A stretch of 64,000 nucleotides of DNA from Halobaculum sp. CBA1158. Lineage in GTDB: Archaea > Halobacteriota > Halobacteria > Halobacteriales > Haloferacaceae. The notes under the pieces are model-generated. The model was given only the letters and a program-made list of their open reading frames with translations. It was not told where the DNA came from and did not search any database. Positions within the stretch are counted from its first letter, which is position 1, and every line of letters starts with the position of its first letter. Of this stretch, positions 22,186 to 22,513 are shown in pieces. Both the position numbers and the translations under genes were made by a program. The stretch is taken from contig NZ_CP090371.1 of the NCBI RefSeq assembly GCF_021431925.1, forward strand, positions 1,054,001 through 1,118,000, read 5' to 3'.

Positions 22186-22289
22186 AGTCCCGTGGTGTAG
22201 TGGCCAATCATGAGGGCCTTTGGACGCGATCCGGCTCTGCCGGTTGCGGGAGACAGCCTTCGACGGCGGTTCGAATCCGCCCGGGACTA
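22186..22289 (+). tRNA. tRNA-Gln (anticodon UUG) with a 31-nt intron
   Basis: The acceptor AGTCCCG (22186-22192) pairs with CGGGACT (22282-22288), with discriminator A at 22289. The D arm is GTG...CAT. The anticodon stem AGGGC/GCCTT encloses CTTTGG + A with TTG at positions 34-36. The T arm GGCGG-TTCGAAT-CCGCC is perfect. The intron at 22224-22254 sits between positions 37 and 38, the canonical archaeal site. Haloferax tRNA-Gln carries a similar 31-nt intron, as I recall. Confidence 0.93.
22224..22254 (+). other. Archaeal tRNA intron in tRNA-Gln
   Basis: 31 nt between tRNA positions 37 and 38. An internal CCGGCTCTGCCGG hairpin can form, as expected for a bulge-helix-bulge substrate of the splicing endonuclease EndA. 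Confidence 0.85.
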
Positions 22290-22364
22290 TTCTGTCCGAG
22301 CGAAGCGAGGACGAATAGGCGCTCGGCGGATTCGAAGCAGGGAACGGAGCGAAGCGGAGTGACC

Positions 22365-22390
22365 GCGGTTCGAATCCGCCCGGGACTATT
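22365..22390 (+). repeat. Duplicated 3' end of tRNA-Gln (attachment-site scar)
   Basis: Bases 22365-22390 repeat exactly 22266-22291, i.e. the T arm, the 3' acceptor strand, the discriminator and two following T's. Similarity continues on both sides (GAC before, GTCCGAG after). No 5' half exists, so this is not a second tRNA. tRNA 3' ends are standard integrase targets, so it is best read as one arm of an att pair left by an integrated element, with about 73 bp between the arms. Confidence 0.75.
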
Positions 22391-22513
22391 TTCGTCCGAG
22401 AAAACTGCCCGATTGAAGAGACTTCCACCCCGGATCGAGGAAGCCCAGACGTCCGGGACGGGGTAGAAGAGTTCGCCGGCGACGTTTTCACGCCGCGTTC
22501 CCTGCGACCGACC

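Follow-up and report, generated by a model that had tools for sequence, protein, structure and literature searches.

A doubled tRNA-Gln 3' end in Halobaculum as a probable member of an order-wide family of small gene-free units behind tRNA genes

The window analyzed here is the whole stretch of 64,000 nucleotides taken from the genome of Halobaculum sp. CBA1158 (contig NZ_CP090371.1, positions 1,054,001 to 1,118,000), and on its forward strand lies a tRNA-Gln(UUG) gene followed by a second copy of its own 3' end. ARAGORN called no tRNA in the window as a whole; run on the excised gene, it called tRNA-Gln(TTG) with a 31-nt intron, given as (39,31). The corresponding genes of genus mates (G004, G005, and G007-G010; loci L301-L306) were called without an intron. 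The locus contains the following features.

22186 to 22289, + strand: tRNA-Gln(UUG) gene, intron at about 22224-22254 (Rfam RF00005, 46.4 bits; ARAGORN on the excised gene)
22270 to 22289, + strand: first tail, from the T-loop to the discriminator base (T54-N73), the repeated stretch (sequence, repeat search; boundary from 189 units)
22290 to 22388, + strand: the 99-nt unit (sequence, repeat search, tail survey)
22290 to 22318, + strand: domain 1, a U-rich start and a GNA-loop hairpin with tandem G.A pairs (GAGCGAAGCGAG; sequence)
22328 to 22336, - strand: inverted T-loop core GGATTCGAA, inside a 12-nt inverted repeat at 22325-22336 (repeat search)
22337 to 22368, + strand: type A body, GCAGGGA...GACCGCGG, a hairpin with GGA/GGA and a GAA loop (sequence; similar tandem bodies behind tRNA-Val(CAC))
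22369 to 22388, + strand: second tail, a copy of tRNA-Gln T54-N73 identical at 20 of 20 positions (repeat search, tail survey)

A repeat search of the window revealed that 22262-22291 and 22361-22390 form a direct repeat of 30 nt, identical at 29 positions, with a spacing of 99 nt and an exact core of 26 nt; of the gene itself, about 20-22 nt of the 3' end are found again 99 nt downstream. These results confirm the doubled 3' end reported in a preliminary description of this DNA, and the similarity noted there to the right of the copy (GTCCGAG) is visible by eye. Likewise, no gene lies between the repeats, which are parted by 73 nt only, and neither an integrase gene nor a remnant of one was found there. 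The short palindromes of the same description do exist as hairpins but are imperfect inverted repeats; we take them to be GNA-loop DNA hairpins with tandem G.A pairs (GAGCGAAGCGAG is the same read backwards). That description also overlooked an inverted copy of the T-arm (TTCGAATCCGCC / GGCGGATTCGAA, 22325-22336), which the repeat search placed between both direct copies. The unit at 22290-22388 thus reads, in order, hairpin start TTCTGTCCGAGCGAAGCGAGGACGAATAG, core GGATTCGAA, body GCAGGGAACGGAGCGAAGCGGAGTGACCGCGG, and tRNA tail TTCGAATCCGCCCGGGACTA. The inverted core sits inside the unit and not at its termini, where the inverted repeats of a MITE would lie. At gathering thresholds, Rfam matched nothing but tRNAs in the window and in loci L006 and L007, and the unit thus corresponds to no Rfam family. 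The same anatomy was found at tRNA-Gln in other genera, where the letters of the domain 1 stem differ and the pairing, judged by eye, is retained.

Hairpins of this kind are not confined to tRNA genes. GNA-loop hairpins with tandem G.A pairs (GAGCGAAGCGAG, GAACGGAGTGAG, and others) are common between genes of the same genome (L239-L254), often in twos or threes, 60-90 nt apart, and such G.A-punctuated intergenic hairpins look like a general haloarchaeal hairpin grammar. We rejected GARCGNAGYGAG as a tRNA-restricted motif because it has 108 sites in this genome, many of them intergenic; the window holds one occurrence, compared with 0.44 expected.

A search of the Halobaculum genome with the tRNA-Gln stretch revealed three tandem copies behind tRNA-Val(CAC), each with a tRNA-Val tail. 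We surveyed the 260 nt behind every Rfam-matched tRNA for a copy of its own tail, requiring a match of at least 16/20 and a unit length of 58-260 nt, and at least one copy was detected behind 16 of the 44 tRNAs, with three units each behind tRNA-Val(CAC) and tRNA-Leu(TAA). In the control with tails of unrelated tRNAs, 4 of 1576 combinations reached 16/20 in the same region, and the cognate tail copies are therefore not due to chance. The remaining 28 tRNAs carry no unit; behind some tRNAs the inverted core stands alone, and these look like remnants of units. On the scale of the order, a strict pattern for the unit (GGATTYGAAN{20,50}GGTTCRAATCC) matched 117 of 146 genomes, compared with none for the pattern written backwards as a control. 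In a sample of the phylum it was present in 51 of 294 genomes, 50 of 53 inside the order and 1 of 241 outside (rows counted by hand). A tRNA lay 68-262 nt upstream of 29 of 30 pattern loci, with a tail match of at least 20/23 in 26; one of the 30, L102, is found 2.5 kb downstream of its tRNA-Leu, an integrase gene separating the two. Among 40 further loci, 38 had a tRNA within 390 nt, the exceptions being one each in G148 and G106, and for the copy in G106 no cognate tRNA was found. Within the genus, G007 and G009 have the tRNA-Gln unit, and in G003 it is reduced to a domain 1 remnant. It is absent from G001, G004, and G008, in which the same gene follows. The alternative offered in the preliminary description, that all relatives share the arrangement without any element, was therefore right in that the arrangement is old and shared but wrong in that three genus mates lack it.

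To describe the family as a whole, we assembled 233 distinct tRNA loci, of which 148 carry units (209 in all), a proportion that is no estimate of frequency because the loci were chosen by unit searches. From this set we excluded loci on viral contigs, repeat occurrences of a sequence, and units below 58 nt. The median unit length was 117 nt (range, about 90-160 nt). In 189 units, the tail repeat begins at T54 or G52 and ends at the discriminator base, and about 9 nt (T54-C62) are copied in the inverted arm. At the variable position 57 of this inverted core, 98% of 166 units agreed with their cognate tRNA, compared with 55% when a random tRNA was used. This weakened the idea of a complete T-arm tailored to the individual tRNA, as only the 9-nt core is copied and position 57 is the main informative site. 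The hairpin motif GARCGNAGYGA occurred 110 times in the sense and 6 times in the antisense orientation. At GA-NN-loop-NN-GA sites, 3.25 of 5 flanking bases pair on average, whereas permutation gave a mean of 2.22 and a maximum of 2.37 in 500 rounds. Fold energy favored the sense strand in 145 of 209 units and in 74 of 100 shuffled ones, an asymmetry no greater than in shuffled units, and we therefore claim no strand effect on folding. Units at several loci start U-rich, and when bodies were grouped by type, 90 of 162 were not assigned. Overall, a unit consists of a U-rich start with a G.A-punctuated hairpin, an inverted 9-nt T-loop core, a variable hairpin body, and the last 20-22 nt of the tRNA.

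Arrays contain one to four units. In the 47 arrays with at least two, the tRNA-proximal tail matched the tRNA better than the last tail in 24, equally well in 23, and worse in none. Tail copies decay with distance from the tRNA, a gradient that could also stem from gene conversion by the tRNA. Because the layout resembles that of CRISPR arrays, we considered a Cas1-type (CRISPR- or casposon-like) insertion that duplicates a 20-22-nt tRNA target. Repeat-unit-repeat arrays with the best copy beside a leader-like tRNA agree with such a mechanism, but Cas1 is present in 45 of 146 genomes, the Halobaculum genome not among them, and by our own tally it is about equally frequent in unit-free (10 of 29) and unit-bearing (35 of 117) genomes. 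Cas1 presence being unrelated to the units, we dropped this explanation as highly improbable.

We next compared arrays among close relatives. A search of 26 genomes from the genus of Haloarcula argentinensis showed that species differ in the arrays that follow tRNA-Leu(UAG) and tRNA-Asp. At tRNA-Leu, an additional 112-nt unit lies precisely at the tRNA end in G420 but not in G161, and the second unit and the flank are common to both. Whole units are thus present or absent exactly between tails, and the difference between G420 and G161 is likely a loss in G161, because similar first units occur in other species of the genus. Several genomes of this genus contain tRNA-Asp as two copies 95-124 nt apart (L315-L320, L322, L324, and L326); most of these genomes also have units downstream of the second copy. 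Comparison of units across loci revealed pairs that share the body only (79), domain 1 only (33), or both (21), these pairs not being independent of one another. Over all loci, 87 pairs, again not independent, have similar bodies but dissimilar domain 1, and in 79 of them similarity stops no more than 2 nt to the left of the inverted core. Body and domain 1 are thus exchanged independently of each other, and the inverted core is where the switch occurs. A stretch of nine bases is short for homologous recombination, and we therefore lean toward joints that are site-specific or based on microhomology. No pair of bodies at least 95% alike was found between clearly different tRNAs, suggesting that jumps between tRNA species are rare or old.

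The preliminary description had interpreted the doubled end as the scar of an integrated element and had predicted that relatives would carry an integrase element at this locus. Such an element was indeed found: in G005, an island of 19.7 kb (L408:394-20000 and L409:1-64) lies between tRNA-Gln and the usual next gene and encodes HsdM, HsdS, and HsdR (type I restriction-modification) and a tyrosine integrase. The site is therefore a true insertion site, and to that extent the interpretation stands, but a fixed anatomy at 16 of 44 tRNAs and across the order is not a random leftover. The integrase of the G005 island has a C-terminal zinc ribbon, and a PLD-domain protein is encoded at its tRNA-Gln end. 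In its precise form, the scar interpretation holds that a unit arose when an integrase-borne element lost its cargo by deletion and its two ends became joined, with domain 1 as one att arm and core plus body as the other. The direct repeat of the tRNA 3' end agrees with it, as do integrase islands at the same sites, that of G005 and a 27.7-kb element in G148 (L403 from 7335 to L297 15009), which parts tRNA-Val(CAC) from its unit array. However, when we compared 12 tRNA-adjacent integrase elements (L307-L314, G005-Thr, G039-Glu, G007, and G428), in 11 the left side adjoins the tRNA with no unit in between. The one case that departs from this is Haloarcula argentinensis, whose integrase gene, broken by an in-frame TGA, has a complete unit on one side and a degenerate second one on the other, an arrangement that itself speaks for a scar. 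Five readable right ends (L309, L313, G005-Thr, G007, and G039) consist of a tRNA fragment, from ∼47 nt to the whole tRNA, instead of core plus body, and unit parts were found at none of these five ends with long attR cores. The right end of G428 is ambiguous, and the G005-Gln element ends in a short acceptor copy only. Past the right ends of the L309 and G007 elements there are older units, as if pushed away by them. A short core is present in the G148 element, along with a G.A hairpin close to the right end, but there is no inverted core; the short core and hairpin keep the scar interpretation alive at low probability. Because the ends of elements differ from units and units lie outside elements, we regard the units as neighbors and competitors of integrase elements; on present evidence they are not their remains, and we consider their origin as scars unlikely.

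Searches of viral and plasmid sequences also bear on a scar origin. The type A body matched viral contigs once, behind a tRNA-Glu beside a provirus, and the type B body never, which argues against such an origin. In all, three stricter scans of viral contigs, those with the two bodies included, gave 0, 1, and 0 matches, and none of the phage and plasmid records covers 80% of the unit. A pattern scan of viral contigs, made with a viral origin in mind, gave at least 80 loci (L119-L198); among the matches listed, these were almost only anticodon arms of bacterial tRNA-Ser(CGA), and we discarded them as a pattern artefact. One viral-contig locus, L168, is AT-rich DNA without a tRNA.

Alternatively, the units could serve the cell, either as an RNA or DNA structure (a terminator or an aid to 3' processing) or as decoy attachment sites that spare the tRNA. 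Retention across the order, hairpin pairing kept with different stems, the strand bias of the hairpin motif, and the U-rich starts are all consistent with a host role, and the integrase element of H. argentinensis lies behind the tail of a unit and not behind the tRNA itself, as a decoy predicts. Conversely, most tRNAs of the Halobaculum genome have no unit, genus mates lack one at the same place, and the arrays of close relatives vary freely, making a host role a possible but doubtful explanation.

Taken together, the results lead us to conclude that the doubled tRNA-Gln end probably, though by no means certainly, belongs to a family of small, non-autonomous insertion units that contain no gene, lie directly behind tRNA genes, and are spread through the Halobacteriales. 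Counting against this reading, neither a responsible enzyme nor a circular or free form of a unit was encountered. Such a unit would depend on functions encoded elsewhere and would use the universal T-loop sequence as its recombination core. It would insert next to the tRNA, the gene keeping or regaining an intact 3' end and terminator, and would leave by recombination between tails. The hairpins may be the recognition signal, on one strand, for a putative recombinase encoded elsewhere, perhaps a tyrosine recombinase, and part of the gains and losses may be plain homologous recombination between tails. In a bolder version, which we think rather improbable, the units would form a cassette-like system of gene-free hairpin cassettes with inverted T-loop cores, inserted, lost, and reshuffled by a putative recombinase that reads a folded single strand; tRNA genes would then be landing platforms with polar arrays, like an integron without genes. 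In the open-licence literature we found no description of such units, and an earlier description elsewhere is possible. That structured units follow about a third of all tRNA genes in one genome and are spread across an archaeal order provides a testable case of small gene-free units with the tRNA T-loop, the most conserved tRNA sequence, as recombination core, and bears on the question of what makes tRNA 3' ends hot spots for insertion. Caution is also called for: in these genomes, a short duplicated tRNA end should not, taken by itself, be read as a deleted prophage.

Several known systems resemble the units in part. The tRNA-targeted tyrosine-integrase elements of archaea likewise target tRNA 3' ends for insertion, preserve an intact gene between direct repeats, and use the same sites here, but the units have no genes, measure about 90-160 nt, and have ends that differ from the element ends we could read. 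Casposons and CRISPR arrays share the repeat-unit-repeat layout next to a fixed leader, and tRNA genes can serve as casposon targets; the units differ in being unlinked to the presence of Cas1 and in being structured rather than spacer-like. Integrons form polar cassette arrays, and their attC sites consist of a variable hairpin between inverted short cores with a strand-specific motif. By analogy of architecture alone, the units may be compared with integrons in polarity, in a variable hairpin between cores, and in a strand-specific motif, whereas they have no cassette genes and their core is the tRNA T-loop. In the open-licence literature, the nearest described repeats are the PATEs and small mobile repeats of Haloquadratum, which, in the passages describing them, are likewise short, gene-free haloarchaeal repeats with palindromes (PMC3119063). 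According to the same passages, PATEs make no target duplication, and no tie to tRNA genes is described there, whereas each unit described here is bounded by tRNA tails of 20-22 nt (PMC3119063).
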